The notes under the pieces: model-generated
What the model saw: only the letters and a program-made list of their open reading frames with translations
Told to the model about the DNA's origin: nothing
Databases searched by the model: none
Source: a virus
Length of the DNA: 21,870 bases
Strand: one strand, 5' to 3'
IMG/VR virus record: IMGVR_UViG_3300042505_001147
Coordinates: 1 to 21,870 of that record
Program-made: the position numbers and the translations under genes
In this document: piece by piece, positions 1,738 to 21,389 of the stretch
Layout: the number at the start of each line of letters is the position of its first letter
Numbering within the stretch: position 1 is the first letter of the stretch

Positions 1738-3456
1738 ATGGCAAGAACAAATTTATCATTAGGTAATTTATATAGAGCAACAGTGGGTTCGGAAAGAACT
1801 ACACAAGCTTCGTCTTTAAATGCAAGAAACGCATCGGCGGGAACTGCAGCATCAATGTTAGCATTCGCAGTTGATTCTATAACAATAAATCAACCAACTT
1901 TTACATACATAGTAGAAAGCACATCAGAAAATGCAACTTTTTCATTTGGTTCAGCCGGTTCTTTACATGGAACTAGAGTTGGAAGTGTAGCAGCAAACTA
2001 TACAGTATCATTTAATAATGCTAACTTTACAGTAGGTTCTCCAACATTAGGAGCATCTCCATCGTTTCCAATTACACCCGCAGCAATAAACGCATCAAAC
2101 TATTCCGAAGCTCAATCTACTTTGTCAATGACATATGCAGATGGATACAATTTGGCAGCAACAAATTATAATAGTACATCTACAAAAATATTATACGCAG
2201 TAGATGTTTATAATACAATTAACCAACCTGACTTTTGTCTATTGTTTGGTACACAAATAGAATTGGCAAATGGTACAATGGTAAATGTTGAAGATTTGAA
2301 TGTTGGAGATGAAATTAAATCTTGGGTACCTGCAGGATTGCCTGATGAAAATTTAGACCCTGAGAGTGACCAAATTGAATGGAGATTTTATCATTCGGAT
2401 ACTTTGGAAGGTTCTGCACAAAATGTAACAGTTACAGATTTAACTTTCAACTTTGCAGAAGGATATTTTTCACTTAATAATGGTTTAATTAAAGCAACCG
2501 AAACTCACCCTTTATATGTTTGGGATAATGAGATTGGTAAATATAAGTTTAAGAATGTAGGTGAAATTTTACCTGGAGATAAATTAGTAATGCAAGATGA
2601 AACTGAAGTAGAAGTTACTAATATCGAAATCGTAACAGATGATGTTGAAATTGTAACTGTAAATGTTGAAAATGCCGATGTATATATTTCAAATGGTTTA
2701 ATTTCACATAACAAAGGAACAACCACACAACCTTCTATACCTGCAAGTGGATTAAGATTATATGTTGACCCATCAAAAGCATCATCAACGGCAGGTACTG
2801 CAACGGCAGACTGGTTAGACCTTTCGGGTTATAATACCGGTGTAAGACCTGCAGGTGTTGCAAACGCAGCAAGTATTACTGGAGGTAACCCATCGTATAA
2901 TGCAGGAGCAAGTAGAAAGGAAAAATATTGGGCAGGAAATGGTACAAACCAATTTTGGTACAAAGATACTACTACAAATATCAATGGTGGCATTTCCCAA
3001 TTCAATACCAATACTGGTACAATTCATATGTGGATTAGACCTACAACAACATTAGGTGTAGGGTCAAGACATATTTTTGATTACGCAGGATTTTATGGTT
3101 TAGCAATCGAATCAACTGATAGTTCTACATTAAATAGAGTTAGATTCTATGGTAGTACATTAGGAAATAGTGCACAATTAACGACTTCATTATCATCAAA
3201 TGTGTGGTATATGATTTCGGCAACATTCCAACCAAGTGGTACAACTACCGTTTATGTGGATGGAACATCGGTAGGAACATTTACAGCATCTGCATTCACT
3301 GCACCATCTAATACTAATTTTTTAACAATTGGTAGTAATAGTGCAAGAACAACATTTTGGAATGGACAAATCGGACCAGTATTGTTCTATAATGTATTAC
3401 AAAATTCGACAAAAGTAACAGAAACATATAATTATTTCTCACCAACATACAAATAA
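1738..3456 (+). CDS. Tail-associated adhesin with intein-like Hint domain and LamG-like domain
   Basis: A 572-residue protein in three parts. Residues 1-166 are Ser/Thr/Asn/Ala-rich and beta-type with no clear family. Residues 167-325 form a Hint (intein-like) domain: Cys167 in CLLFGTQIELANG (block A), T254-x-x-H257 in ATETHPLYV (block B), then VYISNGLISHN ending at His324-Asn325 (blocks F and G). Residues ~335-572 look like a concanavalin/LamG jelly roll, with GLRLYVDPS, DLSGYN, TIHMWIRP, WYMISATF, TTTVYVDGTSVG and FWNGQIGPVLFYN in the usual order; such folds often bind glycans. Cys167, the block B His and the terminal Asn are all present, so autocleavage is plausible. The residue after Asn325 is Lys, not Cys/Ser/Thr, so ordinary splicing is not expected. 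No homing endonuclease is inserted. Its position next to the fibre and sheath genes suggests a virion surface protein. Confidence 0.8.
   Translation: MARTNLSLGNLYRATVGSERTTQASSLNARNASAGTAASMLAFAVDSITINQPTFTYIVESTSENATFSFGSAGSLHGTRVGSVAANYTVSFNNANFTVGSPTLGASPSFPITPAAINASNYSEAQSTLSMTYADGYNLAATNYNSTSTKILYAVDVYNTINQPDFCLLFGTQIELANGTMVNVEDLNVGDEIKSWVPAGLPDENLDPESDQIEWRFYHSDTLEGSAQNVTVTDLTFNFAEGYFSLNNGLIKATETHPLYVWDNEIGKYKFKNVGEILPGDKLVMQDETEVEVTNIEIVTDDVEIVTVNVENADVYISNGLISHNKGTTTQPSIPASGLRLYVDPSKASSTAGTATADWLDLSGYNTGVRPAGVANAASITGGNPSYNAGASRKEKYWAGNGTNQFWYKDTTTNINGGISQFNTNTGTIHMWIRPTTTLGVGSRHIFDYAGFYGLAIESTDSSTLNRVRFYGSTLGNSAQLTTSLSSNVWYMISATFQPSGTTTVYVDGTSVGTFTASAFTAPSNTNFLTIGSNSARTTFWNGQIGPVLFYNVLQNSTKVTETYNYFSPTYK
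2236..2712 (+). other. Hint / bacterial-intein-like domain (159 residues) inside the adhesin
   Basis: From the Cys167 codon (2236-2238) to the Asn325 codon (2710-2712). It has all splicing blocks but no endonuclease, and Lys326 follows the terminal Asn. Bacterial intein-like type A domains are known to keep the C-terminal His-Asn while lacking a nucleophile at +1, which fits this case best. Expected chemistry is cleavage at one or both ends rather than canonical splicing; this is inference. Confidence 0.75.
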
Positions 3457-3527: not shown

Positions 3528-5768
3528 ATGGCAGAAAAATTAGTATCGGCAGGTGTTTTCACAAGAGAAAACGACCTTTCATTCTTACAACAAGGTGTAG
3601 CAGATATAGGTGCAGCATTCATAGGCCCGTTCAACGAAGGTCCAGTAGTTCCAACAATTGTAAATTCACAAGCTGAGTTTGCTGAATTATTTGGAGCAGC
3701 TGATGGAAAATATTATACTCCATTAGCAGTACAAAACTATTTAAGAGAAGCAGGAACTGCAACAATTTGTAGAGTAGCGGGTGTAGGTGGATATACCGCA
3801 CAAAATCCTTTACTATTAACAATAACTACGGGTTCAGTATCAGCATCAGTTGGTATTTTATTCCCTACTGATAAAAATACATTAACAACAGGATTAAGTG
3901 GTTCATCGTTTACAACATTATCAGATGGTGACTTTATCATCAGTATAACTGGTTCAACAAATTTTGCAGGAACATCATCAGTTGATTCCGAAGATACAAA
4001 CGATATTGAATCAACATTTGGTACATCTCCATTGGGAGCTAAAGGTGCATATGTATACGGATTTTTCAAAAACCATAGTGTAACAATTGGTACAAACACA
4101 TCATCTAGTGTAAGTGTATTAGATGACCAATTATTTACATTTGATGCACAAGAAGCATTAACTCCAATGATTAAATCACAAACTATTAGTGGTGACAGAT
4201 TTGATTTATTTCAATTAGAAACATTGGGTGTTGGTAATTCTGCAAATACAAAAGTAAAAATAGGTATTTCAAATATTAAAGCAGCTGGTTCAGTAAACGG
4301 AACAGATTATGGTACATTCACAATTGTAGTAAGAGACTTTGCAGATACTGAAAAGAAAAAAATTGTATTAGAAACTTATTCAAATATAAACTTAGACCCT
4401 AATTCTCCTAACTATATCGCAAGAGTAATTGGTGATAGAAAAAGAGAAATTGCTAATGATGGTAAAATAACTGAAAGTGGTGATTGGGTAAACAATTCTA
4501 AATATGTTAGAGTTGTAATGCCAGCAACATCGGCACCTGTACAATCGGTTCCATTTGGGCATTCGGCTTATACTTTACCAATATCTGCATCTGCAGCAAT
4601 TGGAGCATTGGTTCCATCTGTAACATTTGTAACTGCATCAGCAACACAAAATGGTGGTATCGATTTAGATTTTAATACGGATAATTCAATCTACTTAAAA
4701 GCAATTCCAACAGGAGCAGGTGTAGGTTCTAATTCAGCATTTGGATTGGATGCAGCAAATGGTGGTACATTATCAGTAGGTTCTTCTTTAGCACAATTCG
4801 TTGTAGCATTTCAAGAAGGATTTGATGGTATGAATCCGGCAACTCCAATCTATAAAGATTCGGATATATCTGCAGGAAACTCACAAGGTTTTAACTTAAC
4901 AAATTCTACATCAAGTGGTTCAGTTGCATATATGAAAGCAATTAACGCATTATCTAATACCGATGAATTCGATATTAATATGGTTGTAGCACCTGGTGTT
5001 ACTAAGAATGACCACTCATATGTACATACAGCAATAGTTGATATGGTAGAACAAAGAGCAGATGCTTTCTTTATTACCGAAATGGGTGATTCTGATTTAG
5101 GATTAACTGCAACGGTAACTAAAGCTAGTGAGTTAGATACTAACTACGCAGCAACTTACTACCCTTGGATTAAAACAATCGATATAAATACAAACAAATT
5201 AATCACAGTTCCACCATCAGTATTACTTCCAGGTGTATTCGCATCAAACGATAGAGTAGCAGCAGAATGGTTCGCACCAGCAGGTTTGAATAGAGGTGGT
5301 TTAGTAGGAGCAGTTAGCGTATTGAATAGATTAACTCAATCTGAAAAAGATGAATTATATGAAGGTAAAGTAAACCCAATCGTACAATTCCCAGGACAAG
5401 GTATCGTAGTATTCGGACAAAAAACATTACAAGACAAACCATCAGCATTAGATAGAATTAATGTAAGAAGATTGTTATTGACCGTTAGAAAGTATATCGC
5501 ATCTACTTCAAGATACTTAGTATTCGAACAAAATACTTCAACAACAAGAAACATATTCTTAAATATTGTTAACCCTTATTTAGAATCAATCCAACAAAGA
5601 CAAGGTTTGTACGCATTCCGTGTTGTAATGGACGATACTAATAACACACCAGATGTAATTGATAGAAACATCCTTAAAGGAGCTATCTACTTACAACCAA
5701 CTAAGACCGCTGAATTCATTCAAATTGATTTCAACATCTTACCAACTGGAGCAGCATTTAACGGATAA
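3528..5768 (+). CDS. Contractile tail sheath protein (T4 gp18-like)
   Basis: A 746-residue protein that would form the contractile outer tube of the tail. The N-terminus shows the sheath signature: FTRENDLSFLQQGV, then FIGPFNEGPVVPTIV, AEFAELFG and YYTPLAVQNYLREAG. The C-terminus has the conserved sheath core: VRRLLLTVRKYI, TSRYLVFEQN, LESIQQRQGLYAFRV and the final IQIDFNILPTGA strand. The middle (~110-450) is variable and Ser/Thr/Gly-rich, matching the protruding domains; the protein is longer than T4 gp18 (659 aa). It is followed by the tube gene, the standard order in contractile phages. The ATG at 3528 puts the conserved N-terminal segment in its usual place. Confidence 0.95.
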   Translation: MAEKLVSAGVFTRENDLSFLQQGVADIGAAFIGPFNEGPVVPTIVNSQAEFAELFGAADGKYYTPLAVQNYLREAGTATICRVAGVGGYTAQNPLLLTITTGSVSASVGILFPTDKNTLTTGLSGSSFTTLSDGDFIISITGSTNFAGTSSVDSEDTNDIESTFGTSPLGAKGAYVYGFFKNHSVTIGTNTSSSVSVLDDQLFTFDAQEALTPMIKSQTISGDRFDLFQLETLGVGNSANTKVKIGISNIKAAGSVNGTDYGTFTIVVRDFADTEKKKIVLETYSNINLDPNSPNYIARVIGDRKREIANDGKITESGDWVNNSKYVRVVMPATSAPVQSVPFGHSAYTLPISASAAIGALVPSVTFVTASATQNGGIDLDFNTDNSIYLKAIPTGAGVGSNSAFGLDAANGGTLSVGSSLAQFVVAFQEGFDGMNPATPIYKDSDISAGNSQGFNLTNSTSSGSVAYMKAINALSNTDEFDINMVVAPGVTKNDHSYVHTAIVDMVEQRADAFFITEMGDSDLGLTATVTKASELDTNYAATYYPWIKTIDINTNKLITVPPSVLLPGVFASNDRVAAEWFAPAGLNRGGLVGAVSVLNRLTQSEKDELYEGKVNPIVQFPGQGIVVFGQKTLQDKPSALDRINVRRLLLTVRKYIASTSRYLVFEQNTSTTRNIFLNIVNPYLESIQQRQGLYAFRVVMDDTNNTPDVIDRNILKGAIYLQPTKTAEFIQIDFNILPTGAAFNG

Positions 5769-5780
5769 TTTAGAAAATAG

Positions 5781-5789
5781 ATATTTATA
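5781..5789 (+). promoter_or_regulatory. ATATTTATA box, candidate late promoter for tail tube
   Basis: Intergenic copy followed by TAAAAG, 25 bases before the tube ATG. The gap is 46 bases and very AT-rich. A separate promoter here would allow high tube expression. Confidence 0.5.
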
Positions 5790-5814
5790 TAAAAGAATTA
5801 AAAAATAAAGTAAA

Positions 5815-6306
5815 ATGCCAGAAATATTAGAGTTTGATAAAATTTTCTATAAGAATTTTGAGCCGAAGATGTCCAACAGATTTATAATGGAAATCGATGG
5901 CATCCAATCGTATATTATCAAAACAGCACAAAGACCTACTATCACATCCGAAGTAGTTGAATTAGACCACATCAATGTAAAAAGAAAGCTTAAAGGTAAA
6001 TCAACTTGGGATGATGTAGAAATCACTCTATATGACCCAATTGCCCCATCCGGAGCTCAACAGGTAATGGATTGGATTAGATTATCACATGAGTCAATCA
6101 CAGGTAGAGATGGATACGCTGCATTCTACAAAAAAAGAATTAAATTCTTTTCATTAGGCCCAGTAGGAGATAAAGTTGAAGAATGGACATTAATAGGTGC
6201 ATTTATCACTCAAGCAAACTTTGGTGAAATGGATTGGTCAAACACAACAGACCCAGTTTCAATCACATTGACTTTAGCATATGATTATGCTATCTTAGAA
6301 TACTAA
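5815..6306 (+). CDS. Tail tube protein (T4 gp19-like)
   Basis: A 163-residue protein, the same length as T4 gp19, expected to polymerise as hexamers into the inner tail tube under the sheath. Supporting segments are KMSNRFIMEIDGI near the N-terminus, VELDHINVKRKLKGK with WDDVEITLYDP in the middle, and the C-terminal beta strands ITQANFGEMDW and VSITLTLAYDYAIL, all typical of phage tube proteins. It follows the sheath gene and is closed by a strong terminator, so sheath and tube form their own transcription block. Confidence 0.93.
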   Translation: MPEILEFDKIFYKNFEPKMSNRFIMEIDGIQSYIIKTAQRPTITSEVVELDHINVKRKLKGKSTWDDVEITLYDPIAPSGAQQVMDWIRLSHESITGRDGYAAFYKKRIKFFSLGPVGDKVEEWTLIGAFITQANFGEMDWSNTTDPVSITLTLAYDYAILEY

Positions 6307-11951: not shown

Positions 11952-12248
11952 ATGAGATATAGATATAATAGAATATTAAAGGAAACGGCAACACAAAAAC
12001 AATATTTTGAATCAACCATATACCCAAAAATTAAACCAACCGACAACGATACATACATCATATCAACTCAGTCGGACAGATTGGACTTATTGGCATCAAA
12101 ATATTATGGTAATGCATCTTATTGGTGGATAATATCAGTTGCAAATAATTTAAACGATGCATCCCTATCAATAGAACCGGGTAGACAATTAAGAATACCG
12201 TCGGACATAAATTCAGTATTAAACGAATTTGAAAGAATTAATAGATAA
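11952..12248 (+). CDS. Baseplate wedge protein with LysM-like fold (T4 gp53-like)
   Basis: A 98-residue protein. The core is DRLDLLASKYYG (42-53) followed by YWWIISVANN (57-66) and IEPGRQLRIP (74-83), the LysM-like pattern of gp53 and P2 gpX-type baseplate proteins. T4 gp53 is 196 aa, so this is a minimal version. In T4 gp53 holds neighbouring wedges together around the hub. It begins 3 bases after the tube initiator stop and ends 5 bases before the hub-like gene. Confidence 0.85.
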   Translation: MRYRYNRILKETATQKQYFESTIYPKIKPTDNDTYIISTQSDRLDLLASKYYGNASYWWIISVANNLNDASLSIEPGRQLRIPSDINSVLNEFERINR

Positions 12249-14958: not shown

Positions 14959-15735
14959 ATGAAAAAATACAAACACTTATCCGAAGAGGAAAGACAACAA
15001 ATGACCTTTGATTGGAGATACAGAGGTTTTACAGTTTTAGAATTATTAACCGAACAAGAGGTTGACGAATTAAACGCAGAATTAGATAGATTGAGGTTAG
15101 AAAGAAATCAAAACGAACCTGAAAAGTGGCAAGAGTTTGAACCAATTATGCACCCACACAAACACTCTGAAAAAATTCAAAAAATGTTTTCACATCCAAA
15201 AATGATTGAAGCATGTGAATTTCTAATGGAAGGTGATATTGTTGGAATGCAAACTTGGGGTTATTATAAACCAAAAGGTGAATTGGGTAGAGATATGCAT
15301 CAAAACGCATTCTATACCGGGTGTGGACATAATGAAATTGTAAATACAGCATTAGCATTAGATAATCACGACCCTGAAAATGGAGCAGTTTGGAATTATG
15401 AAGGTTCTCATAGATTGCCTACATTACCAATTGAAGATAATGAGGAAAGAAAGAAAACAAATACAGGTAATTGGAGAAGTGAGAGAGGCAAGAGTTGTGT
15501 GATGCCGGAAGGACATGATTTCCGTAAAATTGAGGGATATTTAAGAAAAGGACAAGTAGCATTGTTACATTCTCATGTAGTGCATGGTAGTGAACCAAAT
15601 GGTGATACAACAAGAATGAGAAGAAACTTCTTATGTGGTTATTTAAAGAAAGGTGCATATTTCAATCCAGGTAACCAAATGAAAAGAGAACCAATTGACA
15701 TCTATGAGATGAAACAAAAGCATTGGGGAGAATAA
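14959..15735 (+). CDS. Phytanoyl-CoA dioxygenase (PhyH)-like Fe(II)/2-oxoglutarate oxygenase with altered iron motif
   Basis: A 258-residue protein, normal for the PhyH family. The fold is indicated by the N-terminal FDWRYRGFTVLELLTEQEVDEL, then MQTWGYYKPKG, MHQNAFY, ALALDNHDPENGAVWNYEGSHR and the C-terminal KGQVALLHSHVVHGSEPN followed by RMRRNF. In the family the iron is held by H-x-D plus a distal His, with an Arg binding 2-oxoglutarate. Here H114 and the distal H209 are present, with Arg219/221/222 available, but the Asp position reads Asn116. Activity may therefore be lost or changed. The substrate is unknown; phage members of this family have been proposed to act on host metabolites or modified bases. 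It has its own host-type promoter and is not part of the tail operon. Confidence 0.82.
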   Translation: MKKYKHLSEEERQQMTFDWRYRGFTVLELLTEQEVDELNAELDRLRLERNQNEPEKWQEFEPIMHPHKHSEKIQKMFSHPKMIEACEFLMEGDIVGMQTWGYYKPKGELGRDMHQNAFYTGCGHNEIVNTALALDNHDPENGAVWNYEGSHRLPTLPIEDNEERKKTNTGNWRSERGKSCVMPEGHDFRKIEGYLRKGQVALLHSHVVHGSEPNGDTTRMRRNFLCGYLKKGAYFNPGNQMKREPIDIYEMKQKHWGE

Positions 15736-17080: not shown

Positions 17081-17818
17081 ATGAGATTAGTAGATTTAAT
17101 GCCATTACAAGAAATCGACTTTCCAAATCAGAAAGCATTCGACCAATACAATAAAGTACATAAATTAAGACCTGATACAAAAGTAACAGTTGCAGGTAGA
17201 GTAACTACTGCAGGAAGAGCTGCATTGAATACTAAAGATACAAAGGGAACATCAGTTTTCCCTAATGCAAAAAAGAAACCAACTCCACAAGATAATGATG
17301 TTTTCGATGGTGGTGTAGATGTTTTAGATACAGTTTCGGATTTATTACCTCCAGGTACAGGATTTACAAATAAAAAGACTGGTGATAAGATTACCGTTCA
17401 AAGATACGATGATGATAGTATGTATGTTTCATATGACAAAGTTCCTGGAAAAGAATTAAAATGGCCAATGAAACAATTCTTAAAAATGACAGCTAATAAA
17501 GAATTACAATTTACTCCAAAAGATAAATCAACTTCTAATCAACAACAATCATATAATCCAGCTCAAGCTTTCAATCAAAAAGTAAGTAAAATGACTGATG
17601 ATAATCAACATTCTGCAGCCGCAGTTGAATTGGCAATTTATATGGATGATAGAGAATCTTTAGCTAAATTACAACAAATCAAAAAATATCACGATAATAG
17701 AGGATATTTACAACCTGGTGAAGCAAAAGAAAGAGGTGAGATAGTTAATAATCTTTTACAAAGAGCTCAAAAAGAACTTCCAAAGAAAGATTTTGATTTG
17801 GTTAGTGGTGCATTTTAA
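17081..17818 (+). CDS. Unknown protein with capsid-targeting-like N-terminus
   Basis: A 245-residue protein I cannot assign. It starts MRLVDLMPLQEIDF, a short hydrophobic segment ending in L-Q-E, then a basic stretch (KVTVAGRVTTAGRAALN). Residues ~75-150 look beta-rich with DDDSMYVSYDKVPGK. A Gln/Ser/Asn-rich linker follows (TSNQQQSYNPAQAFNQ). The C-terminal ~80 residues are helical (SAAAVELAIYMDD, NNLLQRAQKEL). No transmembrane segment. The late-type box and the neighbours suggest a virion protein, possibly inside the head; this is inference. Confidence 0.75.
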   Translation: MRLVDLMPLQEIDFPNQKAFDQYNKVHKLRPDTKVTVAGRVTTAGRAALNTKDTKGTSVFPNAKKKPTPQDNDVFDGGVDVLDTVSDLLPPGTGFTNKKTGDKITVQRYDDDSMYVSYDKVPGKELKWPMKQFLKMTANKELQFTPKDKSTSNQQQSYNPAQAFNQKVSKMTDDNQHSAAAVELAIYMDDRESLAKLQQIKKYHDNRGYLQPGEAKERGEIVNNLLQRAQKELPKKDFDLVSGAF

Positions 17819-17836
17819 TAAAAACAATAATAGAAG

Positions 17837-20119
17837 ATGTCAATAAATTTCCAAGAAATCCTTAAAGAATTAGAATATCGTGTAGAACATGGTATTATTG
17901 ATTTGAATAAAGAGGAACAAGTTACAAAATTAGCAGAAATACTAAGAGAGAATGGTATTCCTGACGCTAATCAAATGGCACAAAAGACAAGAGTATACTT
18001 CAGTTATATTAACGAAGCTGGCCCTAAAAAAATTAATACACCTAAGAAAGAAGAACCCAAAGCAATTAAAGGTTCATTTCCTGCATATAGTAAATCCGCT
18101 GATAGAATTGTTGTATTTAAAAATAAAAAGAATTTTGATGATGCAATGTCATCTGGCAAATATTCAAAACCAACACCACAACAAATTAAAGCTCAAGCTC
18201 AAAAAGATAAAGTAGGTGATGGTGAAGATGATACAGAAAAGCAAACAGGAACAACTGGAAAAAAACCTGAACAACCTGTTTCAAATATCCCTCCTGCAGA
18301 ATTTAGAAATAGTGCAGAAAAAAGAGCTGCAGCTGCAAAAGATAGTGAACAAGATAAAACTGCAGGTATACGATTTACAACAACGGAACAAAAAGAAGTT
18401 TGGGAAGGATTGAATAATGGTGATATAAATGTATTAGTTGATGTTCAAAATAATTTAAGTGAGCAAAGAGATAGAGGTATTGCAGGAGCAGGTGGTTCCG
18501 TTCCGTCTTATGGTGAGTGTCAACTTACCAATTTTTCAAATGAATTGATTGATGGTGATGGATACGATGGGTACATCAGTAATAATGCAAAAGCAATTGA
18601 ACAATATAAAAATGCATTTGCAGTATCTGGTAAAAATAAAGTTGAACAAAAACAAAAAGATAAAATAATCAACGATACGGCTAAAGCTTTGGGGTTGGAT
18701 AGAACCACCGATTACAAACAAATTCTTACTTATATTGCAGCTAGAAATCATTATGGTGACCAAGAATTAAAAAGATTGAAGGAAAATAAGAAATCCGTTT
18801 GGTATTTGGGTGGTAAAAATGGATTTGGTAAGAATGCAGACGCTCTTAAAGAATGGACTGATGCGGAATTTGATGGTGCAATTTCAACTAATATTTTAAT
18901 CAAAACTAATAGTAATATTGATACCACACAACCACATATTGTAATGCAATCCGTTCCTGCAGGACATGACCAAGGAATATTACAACATTTGAAAACTCAA
19001 TTAAAATATGCAAAAGGTGCAGATAAAAAACACTATGAGCATGAAATTGATGCATTTGAACATTTGGGATTTCATGATACATATGCAGTCGGTTTTGATA
19101 AAAATGGTAGAACAACGGTGTATAGTCTTTCAAATAAAAAAGCTAATAATTTAGAAGATATTTGGAATAACACAACTCCGGCTTATATGTTGGGGTTGAT
19201 TAAAGAATCCTTTGGCCCTAAAGTATCTAATAAAGTTATCAATATCCTACAAAAAGGTGTTGTAATGGCAACCGATAGTAAAAAGGCTACTAATATGGCA
19301 TTTTCCGATGCAAAAATAGATGATGCATTTATTGCAATATGTCAACATCCACAATTATCCAAATATGTGGAGGGAATGCAAGCAAATAAAGCATTTAATA
19401 AATGGTTAGACCAAAATGATATTGCACCTAAGAAAACGGGTGAATGGTTAAAAGCAGCACAAGATTATACAAGGCAGGCCAATGGTGAAGTTGCATATGA
19501 TTCTTTTGGTAAGATATTTACAAAAATTGGAGAACTTACTCAAATAGAAAAATTTAGAAAAGCAAATCCAAATATTGATTATAATTCATTATCAATCAAA
19601 TCGGCAATTGATAATAAAAATAGTGAAAAAAATGTTTTGGATGCAATTCACAAAGATGTTGCAAGTTCAATTGCAAAAGCAGATAAAGAATTAGGATTTC
19701 CAAAGAAAAATGGTAAGAACGGCCCACATACACAGGCATATCTTACAACTATTATGAAATCAATGCACTTTGATATGATGGTTACAAACTACGATAAACA
19801 TTTAGGAGTAGTAACAGGTATAAGGGGAACGACATCAGGAGATTTTAGACAAGGATTGGCAATTGTATCTAAATTCAAAGGAGAGATAAAAACTGAAGAA
19901 GGAAGAAGATTATTAAACAAACATTTGGTAGAGAATTGTAAATTAGACCCACAAACTAGAGCAATTATTATTAAAGATGGTGATAATTCTTATAGTATAG
20001 TTGAAGATACTTGGAGGACGGCCGGAACATCGCAAAAGGTAGAAAAGAAAATAGGAGACCAATTAAGACAAGCTTTAGTTTTACAAGCAGATAATAGAAG
20101 GAAAAAAATACATTATTAA
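17837..20119 (+). CDS. Large unknown protein with capsid-targeting-like N-terminus, candidate internal head protein
   Basis: A 760-residue protein without a family I recognise. It begins MSINFQEILKE, close in pattern to the capsid-targeting peptide of T4 internal protein III (MKTYQEFIAE). Residues ~60-180 are a low-complexity Lys/Gln/Pro/Ala linker. From ~215 it looks globular: AGGSVPSYGECQL, YDGYISNN, HIVMQSVPAGHDQG, HYEHEIDAFEHLGFHDTYAVG, GRTTVYSLSNKKANN and LTTIMKSMHFDMMVTNYDKH. The many His/Asp/Glu are compatible with an enzyme, but no catalytic motif can be named. The C-terminus is basic (ADNRRKKIHY). Shadow reading frames inside it are not genes. Confidence 0.8.
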   Translation: MSINFQEILKELEYRVEHGIIDLNKEEQVTKLAEILRENGIPDANQMAQKTRVYFSYINEAGPKKINTPKKEEPKAIKGSFPAYSKSADRIVVFKNKKNFDDAMSSGKYSKPTPQQIKAQAQKDKVGDGEDDTEKQTGTTGKKPEQPVSNIPPAEFRNSAEKRAAAAKDSEQDKTAGIRFTTTEQKEVWEGLNNGDINVLVDVQNNLSEQRDRGIAGAGGSVPSYGECQLTNFSNELIDGDGYDGYISNNAKAIEQYKNAFAVSGKNKVEQKQKDKIINDTAKALGLDRTTDYKQILTYIAARNHYGDQELKRLKENKKSVWYLGGKNGFGKNADALKEWTDAEFDGAISTNILIKTNSNIDTTQPHIVMQSVPAGHDQGILQHLKTQLKYAKGADKKHYEHEIDAFEHLGFHDTYAVGFDKNGRTTVYSLSNKKANNLEDIWNNTTPAYMLGLIKESFGPKVSNKVINILQKGVVMATDSKKATNMAFSDAKIDDAFIAICQHPQLSKYVEGMQANKAFNKWLDQNDIAPKKTGEWLKAAQDYTRQANGEVAYDSFGKIFTKIGELTQIEKFRKANPNIDYNSLSIKSAIDNKNSEKNVLDAIHKDVASSIAKADKELGFPKKNGKNGPHTQAYLTTIMKSMHFDMMVTNYDKHLGVVTGIRGTTSGDFRQGLAIVSKFKGEIKTEEGRRLLNKHLVENCKLDPQTRAIIIKDGDNSYSIVEDTWRTAGTSQKVEKKIGDQLRQALVLQADNRRKKIHY

Positions 20120-20122
20120 AAA

Positions 20123-20527
20123 ATGAATACACAACTACTTTGCCTTTTTACGACAAAGGGAGAATTGGATAAGTCGGTTGATTTTATATTGACCAATTAT
20201 ACTCTAACTAATCCAAATGTTTTCATTTTAGAAAGTAAGGTGAGACCTGAAGAAGCTTTCATTACTTTTAATGTCGAAAAGGGTTCTAACGCAATCCCTT
20301 CGGAGTGGAAAACTATTCTTGTACATAGAAAGAAACAATCTAATTCGATATACACTATCAATGCACTTAATGAAGTAGTTAAGTCAAAAACGGGTGGTAT
20401 GTTGGATAATTCTTATATGATTGATTGGGAAGAATTTAGAAATTGTATCCTAACTACATCTAATACAGGTTATAAAATGATACCTACAAAAGTATTCAAA
20501 AGTTTTAATACAAATAATAATGCTTAA
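20123..20527 (+). CDS. Small phage protein of unknown function
   Basis: A 134-residue protein (MNTQLLCLFTTKGELDKSVDFIL...). The N-terminal half alternates strands and helices like a small alpha/beta domain; FITFNVEKG and WKTILVHRKKQSNSIYTINALNEVV are its clearest segments, and it contains two cysteines (positions 7 and 108). No family recognised. It starts 3 bases after the preceding stop and overlaps the next gene by 8 bases, so it is translationally coupled to both. It lacks the LxE-type N-terminus of its neighbours. Confidence 0.75.
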   Translation: MNTQLLCLFTTKGELDKSVDFILTNYTLTNPNVFILESKVRPEEAFITFNVEKGSNAIPSEWKTILVHRKKQSNSIYTINALNEVVKSKTGGMLDNSYMIDWEEFRNCILTTSNTGYKMIPTKVFKSFNTNNNA

Positions 20528-21389
20528 ACTTTCCAATATACTTGAAGATATATTAAAAGACGATGACATTGTTAAAAACAAAAAAACAGGCAATGTTTAT
20601 ATGGTTAAAAAAATGGACCCGATTAAACATGTTATACCAACAAAAAAACCTATCAATTCCAAATTAAAACCATCTAAACGAAAAGACTCAAAGGGAAATC
20701 AACTTGGGAGTATTCAAACTAAAAATGGTTCAATATTTTTTGGAATGGAACATTATAATTTAAAAGGAGCACAGGAAGTAGTTAATGATATTCAAAAAAT
20801 ATACCCACAAGATAGTAAAATTGCATTTTTAGGTGAAGGTGGTGATGATGATAATGTTTATGTAAAAGGGTCTGAACAAGAATATATTCACAATAAATTA
20901 AAAGAATATTATCCAAATTTTGTAAATGATAGTTGGGATGGAAAAGACTTAAATGTAATGAACGACCAATCACGTTTATATAAAGAACAAATGAAAAGAA
21001 CTGGCCTACCTCTCAATATTGTAAAAGCAGGAAATTGGGCAAGTATGGTTGGGCAAAATAAAAATACAAACGACTTTTCATCGGTTGATTATTTGGATGA
21101 AACAGGAAAACAATATCTACAAAAGTCAGCAAAAGAAGCCGGATTTCCACCAATACAAAATTTTGAAAAACCAAAGAAAAAGGATTACGATATACTATAT
21201 AGATTATCATTTCCTGCAGATTATAATGATAAAAAAACATCAGTTGGTGAATTAGCAGATACATTTAACGATATTAGAGATGAAAATTTAATTCGTAAAA
21301 CAAAAGAGTGGGAATCGAAAGGATACAAAGTAATTGCACCTGTCGGAGATGGCCATATTGATTTATTAAAAAATAAGAATCAAAAATAA
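20520..21389 (+). CDS. Unknown protein, weakly TraB/EreA-like, with capsid-targeting-like N-terminus
   Basis: A 289-residue protein. The N-terminus MLKLSNILEDILKDDD is an amphipathic segment with I-L-E, followed by a basic Lys/Pro linker to ~60. The globular part has FLGEGGDDDN (103-112), SEQEYIHNKL with E119, NDSWDGKDLNVMND, and near the C-terminus RDENLIRK (253-260) followed by VIAPVGDGHIDLL (271-283). The order GE near the start of the domain, an Arg-containing helix, then a strand ending G-x-G-H resembles the TraB/EreA/TIKI superfamily of metal-dependent hydrolases, but the first motif lacks its usual His. The assignment is tentative; otherwise unknown. Last gene of the 17081 block, followed at once by a host-type promoter. 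Confidence 0.75.
   Translation: MLKLSNILEDILKDDDIVKNKKTGNVYMVKKMDPIKHVIPTKKPINSKLKPSKRKDSKGNQLGSIQTKNGSIFFGMEHYNLKGAQEVVNDIQKIYPQDSKIAFLGEGGDDDNVYVKGSEQEYIHNKLKEYYPNFVNDSWDGKDLNVMNDQSRLYKEQMKRTGLPLNIVKAGNWASMVGQNKNTNDFSSVDYLDETGKQYLQKSAKEAGFPPIQNFEKPKKKDYDILYRLSFPADYNDKKTSVGELADTFNDIRDENLIRKTKEWESKGYKVIAPVGDGHIDLLKNKNQK

Follow-up and report, generated by a model that had tools for sequence, protein, structure and literature searches.

Do the genes that follow the polA-like gene near one end of an uncultured viral contig encode proteins that are carried inside the phage head and delivered into the host? The 21,870-bp contig analyzed here (the window, meaning the whole stretch) is a fragment without head genes; it holds T4-like tail genes, a PhyH-type dioxygenase gene and a polA-like gene with a match to Pfam DNA_pol_A, then P0001, P0002, P0003 and P0004 (Table 1), and the host of the phage is probably an aquatic member of the Bacteroidota. 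None of P0001 to P0004 has a significant Pfam or PHROG match, the matches of the window being limited to PhyH and DNA_pol_A; P0001, P0002 and P0004 have zero matches among 50,697 phage records, and no homology of the window proteins to the T4 internal proteins (IPs) was found in Pfam, PHROG or the phage records. Among relatives, the Pfam and PHROG searches, which took in the payload bodies, gave no significant match beyond Peptidase_S77, AAA_33/Zeta_toxin and phrog_2859, the last with weak ParB-like matches. The nearest large relative of the window is G004 (118 kb), which starts within its own capsid gene.

In T4, gp21 cleaves after L/I-X-E and the CTS has 10 residues; the positions important in the CTS of IPIII have been mapped, an aspartate at position 10 blocks processing of IPIII, and by way of the CTS, T4-like phages may be able to package a variety of proteins (PMC9026906). 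We consider it probable that P0001, P0002 and P0004 are, likewise, tag-loaded head-internal (ejection) proteins of a T4-like phage, cleaved by a gp21-type protease, whose cargo is delivered at infection. The N-terminal propeptide of each cargo protein would bind the scaffold core of the prohead, P0001 and P0004 through a short peptide, some 10 residues long and similar to the T4 CTS, and P0002 through a 60-residue helical propeptide with a CTS-like segment at its start. During head maturation, the protease would cut after [LI]-x-E, at E11 of P0001, E60 of P0002 and about E9 of P0004, and the basic, lysine-rich cargo would remain packed with the DNA and most likely enter the cell at infection; injection and early action on the host are proposed by analogy with T4.

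Table 1. Coordinates of the four genes and of the proposed signals and bodies within the window (a slash marks a proposed cut)
Feature	Position	Strand	Remarks
P0001	17081..17818	+	ORF, 245 aa; candidate head-internal protein, short signal
P0001, short targeting peptide MRLVDLMPLQE	17081..17113	+	Start of P0001; proposed cut after E11
P0002	17837..20119	+	ORF, 760 aa; putative long targeting domain and cargo body A
P0002, N60 propeptide (60 residues)	17837..18016	+	Proposed main cut E60/A61 (YINE/AG)
P0002, low-complexity linker with RIVVFKNKKNFDDAMSSGKYSKPTPQQ segment	18017..18436	+	pLDDT mostly below 50
P0002, cargo body A (about 560 aa, residues 201-760)	18437..20116	+	Invariant D414 and N433-K434-K435, near-invariant E227 (alignments A2-A4)
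P0003	20123..20527	+	134 aa; without signal; not in the cargo set
P0004	20520..21389	+	ORF, 289 aa; candidate head-internal protein, short signal
P0004, short targeting peptide MLKLSNILE	20520..20546	+	Start of P0004; proposed cut after E9, the least certain of the three
P0004, post-signal segment DDIVKNKKTGNVYMVKKM	20562..20615	+
P0004, cargo body	20685..21386	+	39-42% identical to the middle of the fusions L239, L244 and L252

Short signals at the starts of unrelated proteins

The first-pass annotation of this DNA had picked out three N-termini, MRLVDLMPLQE at 17081, MSINFQEILKE at 17837 and MLKLSNILE at 20520, and all three are present exactly as claimed. It had also held that no other gene of the window starts in this way, which is not the case: [LI]xE ends at residues 9-11 in 5 of the 20 genes (binomial P about 0.001), the two additional ones being a gp53-like baseplate gene (MRYRYNRILKE at 11952) and the PhyH-type dioxygenase gene (MKKYKHLSEE at 14959). 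Because these two fit as well, the loose rule alone is unable to pick out cargo, and we dropped it as a classifier. By position alone, [LI]xE shows a mild excess at residues 10-11 (10-11 of 410 families, vs about 5-6 elsewhere). A strict signal, ^M.{0,2}[KR][LI].[DNSR][LI].{1,4}E with the glutamate at residue 10-11, fits P0001 and P0004 and is absent from the genes at 11952 and 14959 and from P0002.

The strict expression was defined on eight related contigs and genomes (1,233 proteins in 410 families), where it opens 10 of the 410 families, which are unrelated to one another (shuffled mean 0.8, maximum 5). In held-out loci of related phages, outside the data that defined the expression, the signal stands at 94 of 1,454 protein starts vs 24 of 50,482 internal windows, about 130 times commoner, and opens 8 of 125 families (1.28 on average and at most 5 after shuffling); there, the P0001 family has 54 members, 48 of them with the strict signal. 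Among the 53 MxLxxLIPL-type peptides, almost every second codon position is fixed, in contrast to the many third positions that vary, and selection therefore acts at the level of the peptide. Proteins with the strict signal are found between the portal, protease and scaffold genes (MIRLKDLLSE/AEE..., MRLLDLIPLKE/MENP... and MAKLINLIPVKE/IKKE...), and MRLVDLMPLQE of P0001 is classed with MRLLDLIPLKE, MKLINLIPLKE and MAKLINLIPVKE, which are carried by unrelated head-cluster proteins. The MIKLKDLLKE, MLKLSNILE and M[KR]L[IV][DN]L[IM]PL[KQH]E families all have hydrophobic residues near positions 4 and 7-8.

These signals are like those of T4 IPI-IPIII and Alt in being amphipathic N-termini of about 10 residues that end in L/I-x-E, in being placed on otherwise unrelated proteins with basic cargo, and in the company of a gp21-type protease, here in relatives. 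Unlike MKTYQEFIAE of T4, however, the consensus is M-I-[KR]-L-x-D-L-L-x-E or M-[KR]-L-[IV]-[DN]-L-I-P-L-[KQH]-E, and the cargo is larger than the T4 internal proteins. The proposed site of P0001 is LQE, with isoleucine at P1′; that of P0004 is ILE, with aspartate in the window copy at position 10 (P1′). A P0001-type gene lies directly 5′ of the gene for the long-signal protein in G004 and G012 too, and the P0001 copy of G004 (42487-43551) has about 109 additional residues behind residue 60; P0001 is therefore also modular.

Two further cases were noted. A zeta-toxin/AAA_33 kinase-like protein of G006 (236945-237697; L211:16945-17694) begins MIKLKDLLNSNILNE/G and is a candidate packaged effector. 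In the cultured Flavobacterium phage vB_FspM_immuto (immuto; NC_055915; L256-L259), which grows on Flavobacterium sp. LMO8, five otherwise different proteins, at 1803, 103806, 117631, 118632 and 125241, share the N-terminus MENFDLKKFLVEN(K/R)LTxNSK, most with [LI]xE soon after. The phage also encodes a gp21-type protease, and its capsid protein contains IVSE/A.

The 60-residue domain of P0002 and its bodies

P0002 falls in a second, longer signal class, in which the conserved unit is residues 1-60 (N60) and not residues 1-11, MSINFQEILKE being the first 11 residues of N60. A search with the first 172 residues of P0002 returned a domain whose last residue, in many relatives, is 60 or 61. N60 is present on 72 distinct proteins, with E60 in 72 of 72, leucine or isoleucine at position 58 in 71 (valine in one), a variable position 59 (N/T/D/K/Q) and A61 in 44; this pattern, INE at 58-60 in P0002 itself, agrees with the cleavage rule of T4 gp21. 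The entropy is at most about 1 bit in the majority of columns and jumps to about 2.9 bits past residue 60; residues 1-14 seem invariant partly owing to the search patterns placed there, which did not fix the conservation over 15-60 or its sharp stop. N60 is acidic (pI 4.9), with three helices predicted at modest confidence (H5-17, H26-38 and H44-60), and the bacterial and archaeal genome contigs searched contain no N60. The 760-residue protein had been put forward as the best match to a CTS; its start does resemble the T4 IPIII peptide, but FQEILKE is one residue out of register and lies inside a longer propeptide. The alignments place the likeliest main cut of P0002 behind residue 60 instead of residue 11, with an additional cut at residue 11 possible. 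The N60-like domain at the start of immuto gp078 (116531), near the terminase and portal genes, is a separate observation.

In SPN3US, gp47, gp50, gp53 and gp54 have propeptides of about 80-127 residues, removed after x-x-E (sites such as AVE and ALE) by a gp21-related protease, which probably target the proteins to the head (PMC5694885). N60 is like these in being much longer than the T4 CTS and in its proposed x-x-E-type site; unlike them, it is a conserved 60-residue module with leucine or isoleucine at P3, kept in front of exchanged, unrelated bodies.

Past N60, similarity collapses, and at least four unrelated groups of bodies follow, {A,D}, {B,C}, E and L113. Residues 61-172 of P0002 are still common to G002, G003, G004 and G005, the bodies of which are unrelated; in G004, residues 1-172 are 77% identical to the window and the body is unrelated, while the protein of G009/L245 has 40% identity in N60 and 46% in body A. 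N60 occurs once per genome, flanked, where the contig reaches, by a polA-like (or P0001-type) gene and P0003. Judged by sequence comparison, the position of P0002 is a payload slot, in which the tag is kept and the body swapped between phages.

The two signal types fill the same slot, because the same segment follows each: DDIVKNKKTGNVYxVKKM stands after E60 in many N60 proteins and after the short signal of P0004 and of proteins related to it. Thus, DDIVKNKKTGNVYMVKKM also occurs after E60 of N60 proteins (e.g., L133, L135 and L152) and after the short signal of G006, G007 and G008 proteins. The P0004 homologues begin MIKLTDIFKE (G004) or MIKLKSLLKE (G008), and MIKLTDIFKE, MIKLKDLLKE, MIRLKSLLKE or MIKLKSLLKE immediately precedes the segment in them.

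Body A is also found in fused proteins of 1,409-1,495 aa (L239, L243, L244 and L252), behind a helical N-terminal domain that ends near LxE and is a diverged N60-like domain. The body of P0004 is present in L239, L244 and L252 as well (1,412-1,495 aa); joint delivery of the P0002 and P0004 cargo is supported, since both bodies are fused in nature. By eye, L239 (1445-5680) and L244 contain a ParB-like stretch. Internal L/I-x-E sites between the domains of the four fusions hint at a processed polyprotein, and the polyprotein of about 1,400 residues may be cut at these sites by the prohead protease.

The T-even ip locus encodes diverse injected anti-restriction proteins with the leader alone in common (PMC12373910). 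The slot described here is like it in having one leader and interchangeable bodies, likely shaped by host defences; it differs in that the N60 cargo is about 490-770 residues long, rather than small, and occupies one conserved slot, and in that some phages fuse several bodies into about 1,400 residues. More tentatively, and at somewhat less than even chances, we suggest that this large uncultured aquatic T4-like group keeps a single payload slot with a cleavable 60-residue head-targeting domain and interchangeable, unrelated effector bodies, some members loading a polyprotein of about 1,400 residues that combines several effectors. The effector bodies are possibly nucleases and other enzymes. 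What is new here is a CTS consensus together with a putatively cleavable 60-residue module with exchangeable cargo, within a known CTS/IP-type system.

It is doubtful that the P0002 cargo attacks host or rival DNA as an injected nuclease, with the slot serving as a nuclease-exchange site. The residues E227, D414 and S/T-N-K434-K435 of body A, the order GAG..GE, SD or TD, S-L/C-K-K in bodies B and C, the HNH-like spacing in group E (L128) and in L113, and a weak endonuclease VII match of L113 (E=0.097) would all fit. However, body A has no Pfam, PHROG or PDB-sequence match, and its AlphaFold2 (AF2) model, made alone with 16 sequences (pLDDT 84, pTM 0.75), has no fold match in the PDB; its best BFVD match is the uncharacterized A0A6J5M8Y9 (E=2.4e-8). 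A model of the whole of P0002 (AF2, 13 sequences) was discarded, as with a pLDDT of 56 its fold matches are meaningless. Because hhalign detected no relation between bodies A/D and B/C, we do not assign all bodies to one nuclease superfamily.

Proposed processing, charge and possible role of the tagged proteins

The prohead protease is visible in relatives only, because the window is a 21.9-kb fragment without head genes; similarly, PF03420 has no match in the five nearest contigs because these do not reach the head cluster. A Peptidase_S77 protein of the T4 gp21 type (E=2.6e-30) is encoded on the contig of L056/L134 (L056:5186-5776), which carries N60 and the head cluster, and homologues of the gp21-type protease are present in 6 of 6 large relatives that include the head cluster. 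The L026 contig encodes a capsid protein with 100% identity to the G004 protein and, upstream, the protease ORF. In all 33 capsid-protein sequences of the group, LLDE/ATR stands at residue 59, presumably the counterpart of the T4 gp23 cut. Unlike this capsid-protein site, where P1′ is a small residue, the proposed cuts have I at P1′ in P0001, L after residue 11 in P0002, and D in P0004.

The mature parts of the three proteins are alike in charge: P0001 and P0002 have a pI of 9.2 with 12% lysine, and P0004 a pI of 9.1 with 15% lysine (overall, pI 9.08-9.19 and 12-15% lysine vs phage medians of 5.7 and 8.1%). A pI above 9 is found in 9.5% of phage proteins and in all three mature parts. In T4, lysines of the internal proteins contact the packaged DNA, and mature IPI has 76 residues (PMC3012670).

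The first-pass proposal of capsid targeting followed by prohead cleavage is retained in its core, given the signal on unrelated head-cluster proteins and in front of different bodies, the protease in relatives and the capsid site LLDE/ATR; its loose rule, its residue-11 cut of P0002 and its unbroken gene cassette are not. The last had been drawn as an uninterrupted run of injected proteins over 17081-21389. P0003 carries no signal, is present 3′ of N60 in every relative that reaches it and is a conserved neighbor of the polA-like gene even in immuto, where a P0003-like protein directly follows polA and P0001 and P0002 are missing from that position; the block is interrupted, because P0003 is an ordinary gene.

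Tagged proteins might instead be helpers of the core or scaffold that enter the prohead, are cut, and serve assembly or DNA condensation in the manner of T4 gp67 and gp68, without being effectors. The position of several short-signal families between the portal, protease and scaffold genes, and the lysine-rich mature proteins, would agree with this; but the bodies of P0002 and P0004 are large, conserved within their family and exchanged between phages, their genes lie among tail and replication genes, outside the head cluster, and one tagged protein is kinase-like (zeta-toxin/AAA_33), so that we regard such a role as unlikely. More improbable still is a reading without any link to the head, in which N60 and the short N-termini belong to early or replication proteins of the cytoplasm, as ordinary domains or as features of the translation start. 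The genes do adjoin polA-like, PhyH and replication genes, and [LI]xE by itself is frequent near protein starts; against this stand the constraint on the peptide with third codon positions free, the signal on head-cluster proteins, the invariant E60 with variable P2 and a sharp boundary, the matching capsid-protein site, and an acidic propeptide in front of basic cargo. The exact version of the first-pass annotation, with the P0002 cut after residue 11, would make E60 incidental and has an equally slim chance: FQEILKE recalls YQEFIAE and E11 is retained by most distant homologues, but conservation runs unbroken through residues 15-60 and then stops, P1′ is leucine after residue 11 and mostly alanine after residue 60, and the more distant G009 and L245 have aspartate at residue 11 (ALDD in G009) yet keep YIKE at the boundary.

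If head loading and delivery of P0001, P0002 and P0004 is the right reading, the signals offer a sequence-based way to list the host-entering proteins of uncultured T4-like phages in this group, proteins of a type that went unrecognized by the profile libraries and cultured-phage records searched, and the payload slot would supply candidates for injected effectors and for counter-defence proteins. Should the multi-effector reading also be true, the group would have a dedicated delivery system for injected effectors, well beyond the small T4 internal proteins. Foreign proteins have already been loaded by means of the T4 CTS, and the 60-residue tag might serve as a new packaging handle in the same way.

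Two other genes of the window were noted by eye. The C-terminal part of the product of 185-724 looks like a domain of the peptidase S74/endosialidase-chaperone type (SSSDIRFKENI...DVGVIAQEIEAVLPQLV). A structural-looking protein of 572 aa (1738-3456) has, ahead of its C-terminal part, an intein/Hint-like stretch (CLLFGTQIELANGTMVNVEDLNVGDEI ... VYISNGLISHN), and homologues of similar size lie in G004 (27159-28874) and G002 (4156-5865).
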